DNA from: an uncultured Paracoccaceae bacterium
Lineage (GTDB): Bacteria; Pseudomonadota; Alphaproteobacteria; Rhodobacterales; Rhodobacteraceae
Assembly (NCBI GenBank): GCA_947503765.1
Contig: CANNFA010000007.1
Location: 162,614-197,146 of the forward strand
Length of the DNA stretch: 34,533 bases
Reading direction: 5' to 3'
Shown: positions 7,895-15,057 of the stretch, in pieces
How positions within the stretch are numbered: position 1 is the stretch's first letter
How the letters are laid out: each line of letters opens with the position of its first letter
The notes under the pieces: generated by a model
What the model saw: the letters and a program-made list of their open reading frames with translations, nothing else
Told to the model about the DNA's origin: nothing
The model's database searches: none
Made by a program: the position numbers and the translations under genes

Positions 7895-8545
7895 TCATGG
7901 CGGACAATACCCTTTCAGCGCGACGACCGGCCCACCGGCGGCGGCGGCATCCTCGGGGTCATGCGTGACCATCAATGCCGGCACGCCGCGCGCGGTCACA
8001 TGTCCGAAGGTGAAATCGCGCATCTCCTGGCGCAGCCCGGCATCGAGGTTCGAGAACGGCTCGTCCAGCAGCAGCGCGGCGGGCTCGGCCAGCAGGGTGC
8101 GCATCAGGGCGGCGCGGGCGCGCTGCCCGCCCGACAGCGTGGCCGGGTCGCGCGCATAGAGCCCGGCCAGACCGGCCTGCGCGAGCGCGGCCTCGACCGC
8201 CGCACGCCGGTTCGCGCGGCCGCGCAAGCCGGGCGGCAGGCCGAAGGCCAGGTTGTCGCCGACCGACAGGTGCGGAAACAGCAGCGCGTCCTGGAACATC
8301 AGCCCGATGCGCCGCGCCTCGGCCGGCAGGCCCGTCACATCGCGCCCGTTCAGGCGCACCCGTCCCGATGCGCGAAACCCATGCGCCAGATGCCCGCCGA
8401 TCGCATCCAGCAGGGTCGATTTCCCCACCCCCGACGGCCCCATGACAGTGACCACCTCGCCCGGCGGCACATGCAGCGTCAGCGGCCGGAACAGCGCGGC
8501 GCCGGTGGCGGGCCGGATGCAAAGCGCGTCGAGATCGAGGCTCAT
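7895..8545 (-). CDS. ynjD: ABC transporter ATP-binding protein, YnjD type
   Basis: Cytoplasmic ATPase of the YnjBCD importer. The 216-residue product has Walker A GPSGVGKSTLLDAIGG near residue 36, Q-loop LMFQDALLFPHLSVGDNLAF, the signature LSGGQRARAALMRTLL, Walker B ALLLDEPFSNLDAGL and the switch histidine in VTHDPEDAAA. It is short for an importer ATPase and lacks a C-terminal regulatory domain, like E. coli YnjD. The start overlaps the ynjC stop (ATGA), and it is the last gene of the cluster. On its own it would be hard to tell from thiamine-type ThiQ, but the neighbouring YnjB- and YnjF-like genes decide the family. The substrate is not known. Confidence 0.88.
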   Translation of the reverse strand: MSLDLDALCIRPATGAALFRPLTLHVPPGEVVTVMGPSGVGKSTLLDAIGGHLAHGFRASGRVRLNGRDVTGLPAEARRIGLMFQDALLFPHLSVGDNLAFGLPPGLRGRANRRAAVEAALAQAGLAGLYARDPATLSGGQRARAALMRTLLAEPAALLLDEPFSNLDAGLRQEMRDFTFGHVTARGVPALMVTHDPEDAAAAGGPVVALKGYCPP

Positions 8546-10245
8546 GCGCCGCCCCCTGCCAGCGCGCGGCGGTTGCGATGCACCAGTGCCGGGATCAGGA
8601 ACGCCGCAAGGTATGCCGCGAAGGGCAGCCCCGCCTGCAACGTCGCATAGACCCCCGTCACCCGCCGGTCGGACCCCGAGGACAGCGTCACCGCCTCGGT
8701 CGTCAGGGTCGCGACGCGGCCCGCGCCCATGAACAGCGTCGGCAGGTATTGCGCCACCGACACCGCCACGCCGATGGCGGCGGCGGTCAGGATCGGGCGC
8801 AGCAGGACCGGCAGCTTGACCGTCCACAGCCTGCGCCCCGGCCCGGCGCCCAGTGCGGCGGCGGCGCGGATCATCCGCGCATCCAGCGCGCGCCAGGGAT
8901 CGGACAGCGCGATCATCACGTAGGGAAAGACGAACAGCGTCTGCGCCCAGATCACCGCCCAGATCCCGCTGGGCAGGCCGATCCGCAGGAACCCCACGTT
9001 CAGCCCGTAAAGGAACCCGATCTGCGGGATCAGCAGCGGCAGATAGATCAGCGCCTCGGCCCAGGGCGCGCGGGCGCGGCGGGCACGATCCTCGCCCTCC
9101 AGCCAGGCGATCGCCAGCGCCAGCGACAGGCCCGCCGTGGCCCCGGCCAGCAGGGCCGTGTTGCCCAGCGCCCGCATCCAGCCGCCCTGCGCGCCCGTCC
9201 AAGGTTTCAGCGACCAGCTTTGCGGCAGGATCTGCGGAAAGGACCAGCGCCATGCCAGCGACCAGACCGCAAGCGACACCATCGCCAGCGCGCCCGCCGC
9301 CATCAGCACCATCACCGCCGCGCTGGCCGCCCACAGCCCCGGTTCCGCCGACAGCCCGCGCCCGCCCCGCCGAAGCCACCAGCGGCCCAGCCGCCTGCCC
9401 GCCGCCTCGAGCATCAGCAACAACGCCACCCCGCCCGCCACGATCCCCGCCTGCAGGATCGCCCCGGCCGAGGCGGGCAGGATCATCAAGGGGTCGGGGT
9501 CGAAGAACCAGCGCGTCAGCGCCACTGCCAGCGTCGGCGGATTGGACGGGCCGAGGATGATCGCCATGTCCACCACCGACAGCGCATAGGCCAGCACCAC
9601 CCAGACCGGCAGCCGGATCAGCGGCCAGACCTGCGGCATGATGATCTTGATCCAGACGATCCCCCGACCATAGCCCAGCGCGCGCCCCGCCGCCATGTGG
9701 CGCGCCACGGGGATCTGGCTGAGCGCCGAAAGGATCACCAGAAGCAGGAACGGCACCTCCTTGACCATCAGCCCGACCATCAGCGCCAGGCCCCAGCCGT
9801 CATTGACGATGGCGATGTCCGGCGGCCTTTCCCACCCGGCCAGCGGCGCGATCATCCGGGCGATCCAGCCGGACGGCGCCAGCACGAAGGCCAGCCCCAC
9901 CGCCATCGCCGCATGCGGAATGGCCAGGAACGGCGTCAGCATCCGCGCGCCCGCTATCCGGGTCATCCGGGCATGGACGGCGGCGCAGAACCCGGTGGCC
10001 AGCAGCAGCGACAGCAGCGTGGCGCCAAGCCCGGTGACAAGCGTCAGGCGCAGGCTGGTGGCAAAGCCCGGCAGGCCGGCCAGGTCCTGCCACGGGCCCA
10101 GCGATACCGCATCCCGCCCCAGCGCGGGCAGCACGCCGAAGGCGGCGCGCCCGGTCTGCCACAGCCCCGCGGCAATCGGCGCGATCAGGCCAAGCGCGAC
10201 CGCCGCCAGAACGGCAGCGCGCAGCAGGCGGCCCTCATGGCTCAT
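8542..10245 (-). CDS. ynjC: ABC transporter fused double permease, YnjC type
   Basis: Inner-membrane component with two permease domains in one 567-residue chain, the layout of YnjC, ThiP and iron permeases of the FbpB type. Each half carries an EAA-like cytoplasmic loop that contacts the ATPase: around MAAGRALGYGRGIVW in the first half and IRAAAALGAGPGRRLW in the second. About a dozen hydrophobic segments can be counted. ATG 10245 overlaps the ynjB stop, and its own stop overlaps the ynjD start, so B, C and D are translationally coupled. The ThiP alternative is less likely because the binding protein is clearly YnjB-like, not ThiB-like. Confidence 0.88.
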   Translation of the reverse strand: MSHEGRLLRAAVLAAVALGLIAPIAAGLWQTGRAAFGVLPALGRDAVSLGPWQDLAGLPGFATSLRLTLVTGLGATLLSLLLATGFCAAVHARMTRIAGARMLTPFLAIPHAAMAVGLAFVLAPSGWIARMIAPLAGWERPPDIAIVNDGWGLALMVGLMVKEVPFLLLVILSALSQIPVARHMAAGRALGYGRGIVWIKIIMPQVWPLIRLPVWVVLAYALSVVDMAIILGPSNPPTLAVALTRWFFDPDPLMILPASAGAILQAGIVAGGVALLLMLEAAGRRLGRWWLRRGGRGLSAEPGLWAASAAVMVLMAAGALAMVSLAVWSLAWRWSFPQILPQSWSLKPWTGAQGGWMRALGNTALLAGATAGLSLALAIAWLEGEDRARRARAPWAEALIYLPLLIPQIGFLYGLNVGFLRIGLPSGIWAVIWAQTLFVFPYVMIALSDPWRALDARMIRAAAALGAGPGRRLWTVKLPVLLRPILTAAAIGVAVSVAQYLPTLFMGAGRVATLTTEAVTLSSGSDRRVTGVYATLQAGLPFAAYLAAFLIPALVHRNRRALAGGGA

Positions 10246-11423
10246 TCGACGTAACGCCGCGCCCATTCGTCCGTCAGCCGCGTCATCCAGCTTGCATGCG
10301 GCTCCAGCAGGGTCGGGCCAAGCTCTGCCAGGTCCGGCAGCGCCGGGGCGGTCGGCAATGCGTCGAAGGCCGCGCTTGCCTCCGCGTCCAGCCGCGACGG
10401 ATCGAGCACAGAGAACGCGCCCAGCACCTCGATATTCTGCATATGCGCCTGGGTCGCGGGATCGAGCAGGAAATTCGCCACCACCTCTGCCCCTTCGGCA
10501 TTGGCGGCATTGTAGGGAATGGCGACGAAGCTGACATTGCCGATGCTGCCGCCCTCGGGCACGAAGACCCGCACGCTTTCGGGCAGCAGCCCGTCCGCGA
10601 TGACGGCGGCGGCCGAGGCGGGATCGAAGGACATGGCGATATCCACCTCGCCATCGTTCAGCAATTGCTGCTGCACCGACTCGTTCTCGGGGAAGGTCCG
10701 CCCGCCGCGCCACAGGTTGGGGCGCAACGCGTCGTACCAGTCCCAAAGCGGCGCGGTCGCCGCGTCGAAGGCGGCGTCGTTGACAGGGTCTTGCAGCACC
10801 GATGCATCCGGGGCCAATTCGATCAGCGCCTGTTTCAGGAAGGTCGCGCCCATGAAATTCGACGGACCCGGATGGGTGAAGCGGCCCGGATGCGCCGCCG
10901 CCCAATCCACGAAATCCGCCATGCGGCGCGGCGGCGCGTCCACGCGCGCGGAATCGTAGGTGAAGACGAACCGGGCCAGCCGCCAAGGGCTTTCCATGCC
11001 CTCCACCGGCACGGTGAAATCCACCGATACGGGGGAGCCCGGCCCGAGATCGAGATAGCGCGCATTGGGCAGATCGGCCACGAACGGCCCGTGCAGCAGC
11101 CCCTGCGCCTTCATCGCCAGAAAGTTCGGCCCGTTGATCCAGATCAGATCCACGCTGCCGCCCTCGTCCCGGCCGGCGGCCTTTTCCGAGATCACGCGGG
11201 TCACGGCCTCGGCGGTGTCGCTCAGCTTGACCTGTTCTACACGGACGCCATACAGCGCCTCTGTCCGTTCGCCCACCCAGGAGATGAAGGCGTTGGTGCG
11301 CGCATCGCCGCCCCATGCGCTCCAATAGACGGTCTGGCCGCGCGCCGCGTCCAGGGTCTGTTGCCAATCGGCCAGGGCCGGGGTTGCAAAAAGGGACAGG
11401 GCAAGGGCGAAAAGGCGTATCAT
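10242..11423 (-). CDS. ynjB: ABC transporter substrate-binding protein, YnjB type
   Basis: Periplasmic binding protein of an importer with unknown substrate. The 393-residue product begins with a signal peptide (MIRLFALALSLFATPALA, cleavage before DWQQ). The mature start then shows the YnjB hallmark stretch ARGQTVYWSAWGGDARTN, followed by VEQVKLSDTAEAVTRVISEK and DLIWINGPNFLAMK, which closely recall the E. coli protein as I remember it. I chose ATG 11423 over an upstream in-frame ATG at 11480 because CCGGAGCCCAG precedes it and it opens directly into the signal peptide. It follows ynjF after 76 bases and overlaps ynjC by 4 bases. Confidence 0.9.
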   Translation of the reverse strand: MIRLFALALSLFATPALADWQQTLDAARGQTVYWSAWGGDARTNAFISWVGERTEALYGVRVEQVKLSDTAEAVTRVISEKAAGRDEGGSVDLIWINGPNFLAMKAQGLLHGPFVADLPNARYLDLGPGSPVSVDFTVPVEGMESPWRLARFVFTYDSARVDAPPRRMADFVDWAAAHPGRFTHPGPSNFMGATFLKQALIELAPDASVLQDPVNDAAFDAATAPLWDWYDALRPNLWRGGRTFPENESVQQQLLNDGEVDIAMSFDPASAAAVIADGLLPESVRVFVPEGGSIGNVSFVAIPYNAANAEGAEVVANFLLDPATQAHMQNIEVLGAFSVLDPSRLDAEASAAFDALPTAPALPDLAELGPTLLEPHASWMTRLTDEWARRYVE

Positions 11424-11499
11424 CTGGGCTCCGGTAATCTTGGGTCGGGTTCTGGGATAATGACAGCTTCGCCGCTGCATGGTTACAATTTCCTGCCGG

Positions 11500-12114
11500 T
11501 TATTTTTGCGGTGAAAACGCCCGCCAGCCCTGATGCCAGCGCAGGGCCGTGGTCAGGGCGCAGGCGGCGGCATAGCCATAGGCGAGGATCGGAAATACCT
11601 GAGGAAACAGGCACATGGCCGTAAAGACGGCGATGGTCTCGAAGCCTTCGGTCAGGCCGCCAAGGTAATGGATGCCCTTGGCAGGATGGGCGGCGGCGCT
11701 GTCACCGCGCTTGGCCGCGATGGCGGCAAAGGCCAGAAAGGACGATCCCGTCCCCACGAAGGACGCGATCAGCACGGAAGCCGGTAAGGCGTTCAGCGCC
11801 GGATCCGCCAGCGCGAAGCCCAGCGGAAACAGCGCGTAGAAGACGAAATCGAGCGCGATGTCCAGGAATGCGCCGCGATCGGTGGGGCCGGCAAGCCGCG
11901 CAACCGCGCCGTCCAGCCCGTCCGCCAGACGGTTCGCCGCCAACAGCGCCAGCGCCAGGCCGTAGGCGCCAAAGGCCAGGGCCGGCACCGCCAGCACGCC
12001 CAGGGCAAAGCCCGCCAGCGTGAGGTGATCGGCATGGATGCCGCGCGCGGCCAGCCACCGACCGGGCGGGGCCAGCACACGCCGTTGCAGGGGCTGAAGG
12101 GCCGCGTCGATCAT
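11500..12114 (-). CDS. ynjF: CDP-alcohol phosphatidyltransferase, YnjF type
   Basis: Membrane enzyme of the family that transfers a phosphatidyl group from a CDP-lipid to an alcohol. The full signature D-x2-D-G-x2-A-R-x7-G-x3-D-x3-D is present: Asp65, Asp68, Gly69, Ala72, Arg73, Gly81, Asp85, Asp89. The hydrophobic segments and the motif AKGIHYLGGLTEGFET match E. coli YnjF, which sits in the same gene neighbourhood. The acceptor alcohol is unknown. AGGAGA precedes ATG 12114. It is the first gene of the minus-strand cluster ynjF-B-C-D; the E. coli ynjA and ynjE genes are absent from the cluster. The genomic link to an importer suggests, but does not prove, that the importer supplies a headgroup or related small molecule. 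Confidence 0.88.
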   Translation of the reverse strand: MIDAALQPLQRRVLAPPGRWLAARGIHADHLTLAGFALGVLAVPALAFGAYGLALALLAANRLADGLDGAVARLAGPTDRGAFLDIALDFVFYALFPLGFALADPALNALPASVLIASFVGTGSSFLAFAAIAAKRGDSAAAHPAKGIHYLGGLTEGFETIAVFTAMCLFPQVFPILAYGYAAACALTTALRWHQGWRAFSPQK

Positions 12115-12519
12115 CCCCGTCTCCTGTCGTGAATAGCGTTACAACTAGCCCGAAGGCACGGGATCACATGCGCGCCGGCGTTGCGGCTGCCCTTCGCAGG
12201 GGCAGGCCCCTGGCCCGCGCGATCGTATCCCGGCCTTCCCGCCAGCAACGTAGAGGCAATCGCCCCGGCGGCCAACGGGAACATCATTCGGCCGGCTACG
12301 GCCCGAAGGCGATCACGGCAGGAGGGGCGCAAACCGGCTGAACACATCCGGGATCACAGCACAGGCTGCACATGCCCGGCGGTGGCTGCCAGGACGGCAG
12401 CACCGCCGGTCTTGCCGCGAAAGGCATGTTGCCCCCTCGCCGGATTTTTTAATCCCCGATGGCGCGTGTTTTTCCGCATGCATATGTGCGCTGACCGGCC
12501 GGTATGATATTCGGTGGTC
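12115..12519. other. 405-base intergenic region between ynjF and the antiporter gene
   Basis: Divergent promoter space for ynjF (minus) and the antiporter (plus). No convincing reading frame is visible: the short frames on both strands are Arg/Pro-rich and without ribosome sites. A small perfect inverted repeat, GGATT-N4-AATCC, lies at 12443-12456, and an ATGCATATG stretch at about 12478-12486. I could not define a convincing -35/-10 pair. Confidence 0.5.
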
Positions 12520-15057
12520 ATGGACATCGTATTGATCACGACCGTCATTTCGTCGCTTTTCATCGTCATCGGCGCGTCGGAGCCGTTGGCGGCACGCCTG
12601 CGTATGCCCTACACCGTGATCCTGGCCGTTGTCGGGCTGCTGATCGGTGTCGCCGCGCTGTTTTTCCTGCGTACCGATCTGACGGATGCGCTGAACCCGG
12701 TGGCCGAGGCGATCCTCGGCCTGCCGATCCGGTCGAACGCGTTCCTGTATGTCTTTCTGCCGACGCTGCTGTTCCAGGCGACGCTGGGGATGAACCTGCG
12801 GCGCATGATCGACGACTGGGTGCCGATCCTGACGCTGGCCGTCGTCGCCGTGGTCGTGGCCACGCTGTCGATCGGCTACGCGCTGTCCTGGGCAAGCACG
12901 CTGCCGCTGGCGGCCTGTTTCCTGGTCGGTGCCATCGTCTCGACCACCGATCCGTCGGCGGTCGTCTCGATCTTCCGGTCGATTTCGGCGCCGCGGCGGC
13001 TTGCCCGGATCATCGAGGGCGAGAGCCTGCTGAACGATGCCGCCGCGATCGCGCTGTTCGGGCTGTTCATGGGCTTCGTGATGCTGGGCAATCCCGACCC
13101 GTCGCTGAGCGACGCGCTGGCGCAGTTTCCGCGCCTGATCTTCGGCGGCGCGCTGATCGGCTGGCTGGCGGCGCGCAGCGCGGTGTGGGTGATGGCCGCC
13201 TTCGCGCGCTACGAGCTTGCGCAACTGTCGATCTCGGTCGCGCTGCCGTACATGGCTTATATCATTTCCGAACAAAGCGTCGGCGCTTCGGGCGTCATCG
13301 CGGTTGTCGTGTCCGGGCTCACGCTGAACCTGACCGGTCCGGGGCGGCTGGCACCGCAGCTTTGGGTCAACCTGCGCGAGGTCTGGGATCTGCTTGCGCA
13401 TTGGGCGGGTGCGCTGATCTTCATTCTGGCCGCGCTGCTGATTCCGCGGATCCTGGAGGATGTCAGGTTCGGGGATCTCGTCCTGATCGGCGTCGTGGTG
13501 CTTGCGGCGATGGCGGCGCGGCTGGTGATCCTGTTCGGGCTTTTCCCGTTGCTCAGGGTGATGCGCGTTTCGCCGGTGGTCGAACGGCCCTACCGGATCG
13601 CGATCCTGTGGGGCGGGCTGCGCGGCGCGGTCACGCTTGCCCTTGCCCTGGCGGTTACCGAAAGCTCGCAGGTTCCGTTCGAGACAAAGCGCGTCGTCGG
13701 CATCCTGGCCACGGGGTTCACGCTGTTCACGCTGATCGTGCAGGGAACCACCCTGCGGTCGATGATCGGCTGGCTGGGCCTTGACCGGCTGTCGCCCATC
13801 GACGAGGCGCTGTCGCGGCAGGTCGTGGCGGTCGCCCTGCAAACCGTGCGCGAAGACGTGGCGCGGACGGCGGAGAATTACGAGCTGACCCATGACATCG
13901 TGCGGTCCGAGGCGAAACGCTTTGGACGGCGGCTGGACGATGCGGTCAGGTCGGCCGAGGACAGCGCGGACATTCTCGATCGTGACCGGATCACCCTGGC
14001 GCTGATCTCGCTTGCCGGGGTCGAGCGTGACACGGTGCTGGAGCGTGTCCGCGAGCGGACGATCTCGGCGCGGATGGCCGAGCAGGCGCTGTCGGGTGCG
14101 GACCGCCTGATCGAAGCGGCCCGGACAGGCGGGCGCAGCGGCTATCAGCGCGCGGCGCGCCAGTCGGTCAGCTACGGCCTCGGGTTTCGCAGCGCGGTCA
14201 TGCTGCACAACCGGTTTCACATCTCGGCGCCGCTGGTGCGGTTGACGGCGGACCGGTTCGAGCAGCTTCTGTCCCAGCGTCTGATCATGCGCGATCTGGG
14301 GGCGTTCATAGACGGCCGCATTCGCCGCATTCACGGCCGGAGGCTGGCCGATCTTCTGCACGAGCTGCTGGCGCGGCGCGTCGACATCGTGGAAACCGCG
14401 CTTCAGGGGTTGCGGCTGCAATATCCTGGATACGCCGAAGAGCTTGAGCGCCGTTTCATCCGCCGCACCGCCTTGCGGCTGGAAGAGCGCGAATACACCG
14501 CCATGCGCGAGGACGGGGTGATCGGCGCCGAGGTGTACACGATGCTGATGCAGAGTCTCACGGCCCGGCGCGCCGCCGCGGAACGCCGCCCGCGCCTCGA
14601 TATCGCGCTCGAGCGGACCGAGCTTGTGCGGCGATACCCGTTATTTACGGACCTTGAAGAGGCGGCGCTGAAACGGCTCGGGCGGGCGTTTCAGACCCGC
14701 TACGTGAACGCGGGCGATACCATAATGCACAAGGACAGCGCGGCCAAAAGCGTGTTCTTCATCGCCTCGGGCGCCGTCGAGCTGGTCGGCGCGGGCCAAT
14801 CCTGGCGCCTTGGGCGCGGCGAGATGTTCGGACAGATGGCCATTCTGATGAAGAAGAGGATCCGGACCGAGGTGCGCGCGATCGCGCCCTCGACGCTTCT
14901 TGTTCTTGACGAGGAACGCTTTCGGCGGTTGCTGTCGCGCAGTACCGCGCTGCAATCTGCCGTGCGCGACAGTGCGGAAAAGCGCGGGATCGCGCCGGAG
15001 GATCTTTTTACCGACAAGGGCGCATCGCCCAAGGCCAGGGATCGCGCCACGGCGTGA
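12520..15057 (+). CDS. CPA1-type Na+/H+ antiporter with C-terminal cyclic-nucleotide-binding-like domain
   Basis: Cation:proton antiporter exchanging Na+ (or K+) for protons at the inner membrane. The N-terminal ~420 residues hold 11-13 membrane segments and the NhaP/SOS1-type ion-site motifs TDPSAVVSIF near residue 142 and EGESLLNDAAAIALFGLFMG near 166. Residues ~430-700 form a long charged, mostly helical cytoplasmic region. Residues ~705-835 form a cNMP-binding-like beta roll (YVNAGDTIMHKDSAAKSVFF, GEMFGQMAILMKKRIRTEV). The canonical phosphate-binding arginine loop is not obvious, so nucleotide binding is uncertain. The same order of domains occurs in the plant SOS1 exchanger. The start is uncertain: ATG 12520 is favoured; GTG 12514 would add two residues. 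Its stop is only 2 bases from the end of the convergent next gene. Confidence 0.9.
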   Translation: MDIVLITTVISSLFIVIGASEPLAARLRMPYTVILAVVGLLIGVAALFFLRTDLTDALNPVAEAILGLPIRSNAFLYVFLPTLLFQATLGMNLRRMIDDWVPILTLAVVAVVVATLSIGYALSWASTLPLAACFLVGAIVSTTDPSAVVSIFRSISAPRRLARIIEGESLLNDAAAIALFGLFMGFVMLGNPDPSLSDALAQFPRLIFGGALIGWLAARSAVWVMAAFARYELAQLSISVALPYMAYIISEQSVGASGVIAVVVSGLTLNLTGPGRLAPQLWVNLREVWDLLAHWAGALIFILAALLIPRILEDVRFGDLVLIGVVVLAAMAARLVILFGLFPLLRVMRVSPVVERPYRIAILWGGLRGAVTLALALAVTESSQVPFETKRVVGILATGFTLFTLIVQGTTLRSMIGWLGLDRLSPIDEALSRQVVAVALQTVREDVARTAENYELTHDIVRSEAKRFGRRLDDAVRSAEDSADILDRDRITLALISLAGVERDTVLERVRERTISARMAEQALSGADRLIEAARTGGRSGYQRAARQSVSYGLGFRSAVMLHNRFHISAPLVRLTADRFEQLLSQRLIMRDLGAFIDGRIRRIHGRRLADLLHELLARRVDIVETALQGLRLQYPGYAEELERRFIRRTALRLEEREYTAMREDGVIGAEVYTMLMQSLTARRAAAERRPRLDIALERTELVRRYPLFTDLEEAALKRLGRAFQTRYVNAGDTIMHKDSAAKSVFFIASGAVELVGAGQSWRLGRGEMFGQMAILMKKRIRTEVRAIAPSTLLVLDEERFRRLLSRSTALQSAVRDSAEKRGIAPEDLFTDKGASPKARDRATA

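Follow-up and report, generated by a model that had tools for sequence, protein, structure and literature searches.

Why would bacteria keep an ATP-binding cassette (ABC) importer of the YnjBCD type together with a CDP-alcohol phosphatidyltransferase of the YnjF type? The question is raised by a stretch of 34,533 nucleotides (hereafter the window) from an uncultured Paracoccaceae bacterium (assembly GCA_947503765.1, contig CANNFA010000007.1, positions 162,614 to 197,146), in which the orphan genes ynjF, ynjB, ynjC and ynjD stand side by side. Our analyses indicate that YnjF and YnjBCD are very likely coupled in function, and their near-inseparability makes of four orphans a single question. 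The answer that we tentatively favour is that YnjBCD imports a small unphosphorylated alcohol and that YnjF attaches it to cytidine diphosphate (CDP)-diacylglycerol, producing a minor phospholipid under envelope stress.

To what extent do the enzyme and the importer go together? We surveyed a sample of 398 genomes of the phylum with a YnjB model and with a YnjF profile built here, both applied to the same genomes. The scores were two-humped in each case, with an upper YnjB group of at least 429.8 bits (next match, 116) and an upper YnjF group of at least 217.3 bits (next match, 52.8). YnjB occurred in 51 genomes, YnjF in 60 and both in 49, leaving two with YnjB only, 11 with YnjF only and 336 with neither. 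YnjF is consequently present in 49/51 YnjB-bearing genomes versus 11/347 YnjB-less ones (Fisher p about 2e-49, uncorrected for relatedness). As guards against relatedness, we counted genera and families and tabulated the window's own family separately: YnjF accompanies YnjB in 30 of the 32 genera and 15 of the 16 families that bear the latter, and among the 27 genomes of the window's family 11 have both, none YnjB only, six YnjF only and ten neither (Fisher p 0.001, likewise uncorrected). An earlier note on this DNA had argued that retention of the phosphatidyltransferase with the importer in distant lineages implies a shared function, and had offered rare co-occurrence after removal of close relatives as a refutation; that rarity was not seen, and the argument is borne out by these counts and by the four gene layouts described below. 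It is this near-obligate co-occurrence, together with clustering in several layouts, that leads us to attribute a shared function to YnjF and YnjBCD, a coupling for which we found no report in the open-licence literature.

In the window, the four genes are open and intact on the minus strand, in the order F-B-C-D and with ATGA overlaps, exactly as the earlier note had read them. The features are as follows.

11500..12114, minus strand: ynjF, CDP-alcohol phosphatidyltransferase of the YnjF subfamily, 204 residues (PF01066, 32.9 bits, cut-off 22)
11848..11922, minus strand: CDP-alcohol phosphotransferase signature, YnjF residues 65-89 (conserved in the alignment of 141 YnjF sequences)
11845..11847, minus strand: YnjF F90, at the site of R94 of the M. 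tuberculosis PIP synthase (from alignment; Phe in 139/141)
11635..11637, minus strand: YnjF T160, at the site of the phosphate-binding R155 of PIP synthase (from alignments with the AIPS-like paralogue of the same genome and 4mnd; Thr in 141/141)
11539..11541, minus strand: YnjF R192, at the site of R195 of PIP synthase, kept (from alignment; Arg in 141/141)
11424..11499, minus strand: gap of 76 bp between ynjF and ynjB (sequence and terminator scan)
10242..11423, minus strand: ynjB, periplasmic substrate-binding protein, 393 residues, with an N-terminal hydrophobic stretch (NF008633, 476.9 bits, cut-off 203)
10242..10245, minus strand: ATGA overlap of the ynjB stop and the ynjC start (sequence)
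8542..10245, minus strand: ynjC, double-length permease, 567 residues (PF00528 in the C-terminal half)
8542..8545, minus strand: ATGA overlap of the ynjC stop and the ynjD start (sequence)
7895..8545, minus strand: ynjD, ABC ATPase, 216 residues, with Walker A GPSGVGKST, LSGGQ signature and DEPF (PF00005, 104.5 bits)

Because ynjB overlaps ynjC, ynjC overlaps ynjD and our scan gave no terminator-like site in the gap between ynjF and ynjB, the block is likely transcribed as a single unit. Binding protein, double-length permease and ATPase are contiguous, as expected for a YnjBCD importer; NCBIfam permease models match both halves of YnjC (residues 62-237 and 426-543), and ynjB is the sole gene of the genome above the cut-off of its subfamily (NF008633 / COG4134). 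E. coli K-12 has the same four families (b1754-6 and b1758), with 53% identity over 192 residues for YnjF (E 2e-51) and 42% for YnjB, and among 5426 complete E. coli genomes its ynjB-ynjF region finds a match in 5373, with a coverage of 80% or more in 5364. The likeness in gene families to E. coli that the earlier note had proposed therefore holds, but the one-strand layout is not shared: in E. coli, ydjXYZ and ynjA come before, ynjE lies between and ynjF is convergent on the other strand, whereas in the window F leads on the same strand. The absence of ynjA and ynjE was confirmed within the window (tblastn map, E 1e-5), the remaining genome not having been searched for them, and the alphaproteobacterial host also stands, the closest YnjF loci among 80 named ones being Rhodobacteraceae-type (Roseovarius, Antarctobacter and their kin).

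Is the clustering simply an inherited arrangement? We fetched the flanks, of about 8 kb each, of the 50 YnjB genes outside the window (three with 7 kb on one side, one meeting a contig end) and found YnjF within 8 kb at 34 of them, or 35/51 with the window. These 35 linked cases span 21 genera and seven families; F is co-oriented with BCD and upstream of it in ten, co-oriented and downstream of D in 19, and in six it lies past ynjE in convergent orientation. A YnjF-seeded scan confirmed 455 loci, and among the best 80 of these, which are the named ones, YnjB is present in 60, YnjC in 61 and YnjD in 61, with at least one of the three within 10 kb in 62. F comes first in 27 of these 62 and last in 30, and the other five show a fourth, divergent layout in which BCD lies left of F on the other strand, about 0.2 kb away in four Marivita loci and 5.2 kb away in the remaining one; two of the 18 loci devoid of YnjB, YnjC and YnjD are on contigs with less than 5 kb on either side. 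Several layouts speak more strongly for a shared function than a single conserved one could and, since they differ, the clustering looks rebuilt and not merely inherited. A bare F-B-C-D block like that of the window also occurs in an Aliiroseovarius plasmid region (the one viewed of eight such records that matched). In four genomes of the window's family, from three genera, a hydantoinase/oxoprolinase-like gene (a call made with Pfam on the protein of one of them) lies just upstream of ynjF on the same strand.

What reaction might YnjF catalyse? CDP-alcohol phosphotransferases carry the motif D-x2-D-G-x2-A-R-x(n)-G-x3-D-x3-D, which is complete in the window protein (DGLDGAVAR...GAFLDIALD). D65, D68, G69, A72, G81, D85 and D89, hence all four catalytic aspartates, are identical in 141/141 aligned YnjF sequences and R73 in 139/141; this alignment was not dereplicated, and one of the 26 fetched YnjF loci (L105) was left out, having no YnjF row in the clustering of open reading frames (ORFs). 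With 297 bits against the YnjF profile, the window protein falls in the upper group and, as its own row is included in that profile, the identity to the E. coli protein provides independent support. It reaches the cut-off of no named NCBIfam family. Its AlphaFold2 model (mean predicted local distance difference test score, pLDDT, of 87, weak at residues 141-149) finds its closest solved structures, which are also its closest sequences, among the prokaryotic PIP synthases and AIPS/DIPPS (PDB 6h59, 5d92, 4mnd; NF040950, NF045883). These enzymes share the catalytic motif, but YnjF misses the cut-off of PIP/AIP synthases (53 of 180 bits) and differs from them in the acceptor pocket. In the passages of the M. 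tuberculosis PIP synthase study concerned, this pocket comprises R94, R152, R155, R195 and K135, plus R137 of the second chain, with R155 and R195 strictly conserved and R94 kept in inositol-phosphate users (PMC6506517). We compared R94, R152, R155 and R195, at whose sites YnjF has F90, G157 (Gly in 128 sequences, Ala in 12, Ser in one), T160 and R192; F90 and R192 were placed through one alignment, G157 and T160 through another with the AIPS-like paralogue of the window genome, which has the arginines. Judging from its residues, YnjF is very probably an active enzyme and, because only R195 of the four pocket arginines is kept, its acceptor would lack a phosphate and is probably not a phosphorylated polyol.

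The window genome contains few other enzymes of this kind, a PF01066 search (E 0.001) returning only PgsA, an AIPS-like protein, a Pcs-like protein and YnjF. The gene of the AIPS-like enzyme begins where that of an FGGY-type (xylulokinase-like) kinase ends (L002:116-2049), which suggests a separate polyol-phosphate lipid route. There is no PssA above the TIGR00473 cut-off in this genome; the idea that YnjF stands in for phosphatidylserine synthase was discarded, as five YnjF-negative relatives have just two PF01066 matches each and no link appears. An analogy for the pathway that we favour is phosphatidylcholine synthase, Pcs, which with a choline ABC importer joins an imported alcohol to CDP-diacylglycerol in one step. 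YnjF itself is far from the Pcs cut-off (26.5 of 440 bits), and the separate Pcs-like protein of the window genome, at 235.9 bits, is below its own cut-off of 350.

What could the importer carry? The AlphaFold2 model of YnjB (mean pLDDT 92.6) matches solute-binding proteins in Foldseek, and among the 50 fold matches listed are STM0429, FutA1, FbpA, AfuA and PotD, at 12-20% identity. Since these matches are so distant and bind very different ligands, the fold does not choose one. At positions at least 90% conserved in 28 YnjB sequences there are eight Trp, seven Phe, six Asn, three Asp and three Glu, with no Cys, no Lys, no Met except the start, and a single His and a single Tyr, both near the C-terminus. 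On this composition, YnjB more likely uses aromatic residues to hold a polar organic ligand than binds a bare metal ion. Import of ferric, copper or other metal ions tied to metal stress could be imagined from the presence of FutA1 and FbpA among the closest folds, from the TonB receptor and DUF692/DUF2282 neighbours of some loci and from the conserved acidic residues, but the scarcity of conserved ligand residues in YnjB makes it very improbable. YnjBCD has also often been annotated as a thiamine or inorganic sulfur importer, as quoted in a passage of PMC9184624, in which case YnjF would be incidental. The best match of YnjD is indeed ThiQ and the ABC architecture is that of ThiBPQ, but the cut-offs are missed (ThiQ 159.6 of 245 bits, ThiP 24.4 of 395), a separate ThiB-type binding protein encoded elsewhere in the window genome scores above its own (353.6 bits), a riboswitch was matched neither in the window nor in eight related loci, where the only matches were tRNAs, and the co-occurrence with YnjF would find no explanation; we give this role very little credence. 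The literature passages dealing with YnjBCD define no substrate (PMC9207381, PMC9184624), the former, a Marinobacter study, calling it uncharacterized.

Do other genes accompany this pair? A frequent third partner is a protein of about 717 residues in which a VTT (DedA/TVP38) domain precedes a MerA/lipoamide-dehydrogenase-like flavin adenine dinucleotide (FAD) reductase. This full fusion is present in 57 of the 398 genomes, 24 of them with YnjF (a looser set of 66 includes nine split or weaker matches). In 20 genomes it lies no more than 10 kb from YnjF or YnjB and, partial matches counted, it is present in 31 of the best 80 of 455 YnjF loci. Plasmid stretches of Klebsiella, Paracoccus and Pseudooceanicola combine TVP38/TMEM64-FAD fusion, YnjBCD, YnjF, a second FAD oxidoreductase and small sigma-70 family factors, which we read as being of the extracytoplasmic function (ECF) type, and two of the three also have DUF692/DUF2282/DoxX. 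The window genome, unlike these islands, has neither a full fusion, only the reductase part being matched, nor a DUF692 gene. In its nearest named relative, an uncultured Roseovarius (L113), a partial fusion match directly precedes ynjF and DUF692 lies within 7 kb; the ynjB match of this relative (L113:7991-12380) falls into two parts with about 3.1 kb between them, which looks like an interruption. A Pseudoalteromonas plasmid operon reads TonB receptor, TVP38/FAD fusion, DUF547, B, C, D, F and sterol desaturase, thereby adding a second lipid-type enzyme; much of this gene set is also found in eight genomes of three families and two Idiomarina-type loci, its last gene being FA_hydroxylase/OlsE-like and short of the OlsE cut-off (95.6 of 475 bits). 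YnjF homologues occur on 55 plasmid records in total, some of them chromosome-sized. A K. pneumoniae plasmid island (L221) reads DUF6789-DUF2282-DUF692-DNA-binding-DoxX-TVP38/FAD-FAD oxidoreductase-YnjBCD-YnjF and also contains one gene of the sigma-70 family and one of the carboxymuconolactone-decarboxylase family (the YnjA annotation is AhpD-like); YnjF shows the same 59% identity on E. coli, Salmonella, Citrobacter and Providencia plasmids, many of them of bovine, veal or milk origin. In two YnjF-only genomes (L110 and L111), DoxX and the fusion are followed by a gene for a CNT-type nucleoside transporter (the L110 protein was assigned with Pfam) and then directly by ynjF.

Such neighbours evoke a different explanation, the main rival of the one we favour and a serious though doubtful possibility, namely a shared stress programme with separate chemistry: YnjBCD would import an unrelated solute, redox or osmotic for example, while YnjF would make a stress lipid from a cytoplasmic alcohol, the two clustering since one envelope stress would call for both. 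The variable, stress-like company of the locus (VTT-MerA fusion, TIGR03169-type FAD oxidoreductase, DoxX, sigma-70 family factors, DUF692/DUF2282) is consistent with this, as are the 11 of 60 YnjF genomes devoid of YnjB and the regulation in E. coli, where a BaeR envelope-stress table lists ynjA (1.6 fold) and ynjB (1.4 fold) and an FNR regulon table lists ydjXYZ-ynjABCD (PMC2731931, PMC3688515). However, the association of YnjB with YnjF is far tighter than any other that we counted (fusion, ArsS, TIGR04283, DUF692), F-B-C-D is also found as a bare block, and DUF692 is not enriched genome-wide, with 21/40 versus 18/40 in controls. That last comparison also led us to drop a specific link to DUF692 (the "bufferin" link), which is real in some islands, with DUF692 near 2/50, 1/26 and 6/80 loci in three locus sets. 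Alternatively, YnjBCD might retrieve the product of YnjF, or its head group, from the periplasm instead of supplying it, a recycling that calls for the same genes with the order of events reversed. DedA proteins have a role in lipid movement, and the VTT/DedA-type partner may suggest movement of a lipid across the membrane; the fold of YnjB, nevertheless, is that of proteins binding small solutes (kin of FutA1, AfuA, PotD and STM0429), and we consider recycling unlikely.

A last alternative comes from the other surroundings in which the fusion is found. It lies within 10 kb of arsS, the arsenosugar radical S-adenosylmethionine gene, in 12 of the 25 genomes having both, and at the loci examined (L196-L207) arsS is often near the fusion, TIGR04282/TIGR04283 glycosyltransferases, DUF547 or a TIGR03169-type oxidoreductase, as a recurring set. 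YnjBCD and YnjF could accordingly import an organoarsenic sugar and anchor it to a lipid, as an import counterpart of ArsS pathways. The VTT-MerA fusion, DUF547, TIGR03169 and TIGR04282/04283 do stand near ArsS, to varying degree, at 13 fetched ArsS loci (selected, for the most part, because both are present in the genome), the fusion is near ArsS in 12 genomes and near YnjF or YnjB in 20, a nucleoside transporter gene precedes ynjF in the two genomes mentioned, and ArsS and YnjF avoid each other, with ArsS (TIGR04167) above cut-off in only 1/60 YnjF genomes and below it in the window genome (E 9.6e-6). Yet TIGR04283 is above cut-off in 8/62 YnjF/YnjB genomes versus 14/62 controls (hand-picked and devoid of YnjF, YnjB and ArsS), the avoidance may only mirror the sampling of one ArsS-rich family, and the 13 ArsS loci contain no ORF with the CDP-alcohol motif. 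With TIGR04283 not enriched and ArsS avoiding YnjF genomes, an arsenosugar link appears highly unlikely.

Does the published physiology speak to a membrane role? In evolved E. coli, fitness under colistin fell strikingly once a ynjC missense mutation was reverted, by a mechanism that the authors call unknown, according to passages of PMC9184624. Passages of PMC8767333 describe positive selection on ynjC, premature stops included, among outbreak genomes of K. pneumoniae, with a putative colistin link. The ynjB deletion is listed in a ciprofloxacin-tolerance screen (a listing in PMC13131330), and the word ynjF is absent from the open-licence literature searched. Coupling between importer and phosphatidyltransferase would offer a candidate lipid-based explanation for the recurrent ynjC mutations under colistin.

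In the mechanism that we favour, YnjB would capture a small hydroxyl-bearing organic solute in the periplasm, YnjC and YnjD would pump it inward and, in the inner membrane, YnjF would let the hydroxyl of the solute displace cytidine monophosphate from CDP-diacylglycerol to yield a minor phospholipid; in many relatives, the VTT/DedA-MerA-like FAD reductase fusion probably moves or chemically finishes the product. That the cargo is the acceptor, that transport is inward, what lipid results and that it serves under stress are points that we infer. The earlier note had suggested, by way of example, that an imported alcohol may be attached to a lipid, a mechanism compatible with the family of the enzyme, its intact active site and its acceptor pocket. 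Several observations weigh against this mechanism. YnjF lacks YnjB in 11/60 genomes, which implies that import need not be obligatory for YnjF, and YnjB lacks YnjF in 2/51. Fourteen of the 49 co-occurring genomes, from nine families of which one is also among the linked, have the two genes unlinked. The full fusion is found in only 24/60 YnjF genomes, and it lies within 10 kb of ynjF in 5/11 YnjF-only genomes, so YnjF also exists apart from YnjBCD. The distances of YnjB and YnjF do correlate (r 0.66 over 50 genomes, 0.82 for linked and 0.83 for unlinked ones), although with no control pair, and this mostly reflects common descent. The closest folds of YnjB bind very different ligands, and no accessory gene names the alcohol, TIGR04283, DUF692 and ArsS not being enriched in YnjF/YnjB genomes. 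As for colistin, passages of one paper report that a ynjC deletion takes up less of one of two cationic dyes, which makes altered colistin uptake an alternative (PMC9184624), those of the other that 7/12 ynjC-mutated isolates were resistant, the stop-codon ones having no phenotype data (PMC8767333), and the passages of neither give lipid measurements.

Taken further, the import of an alcohol, its coupling by YnjF and its finishing or moving by a VTT-MerA-type protein might constitute a head-group salvage pathway spread across Proteobacteria, present in nearly every E. coli and on enteric plasmids, and tuning the membrane against polycations, metals or oxidants; this generalization is possible but speculative, and the same doubt attaches to the notion that such a phospholipid head-group salvage pathway has not been described before. 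If true, it would mean an additional phospholipid in one of the best-studied membranes.

The remainder of the window adds few observations. Scans for repeats, tRNAs and promoters gave nothing useful, and an Rfam scan of the window returned no family at threshold. Downstream of the block are genes for an Rce1-like protein and an accD-like gene. Upstream of ynjF and divergent from it, at positions 12514-15057, lies a gene for a Na+/H+ exchanger with a C-terminal cyclic nucleoside monophosphate (cNMP)-binding domain.

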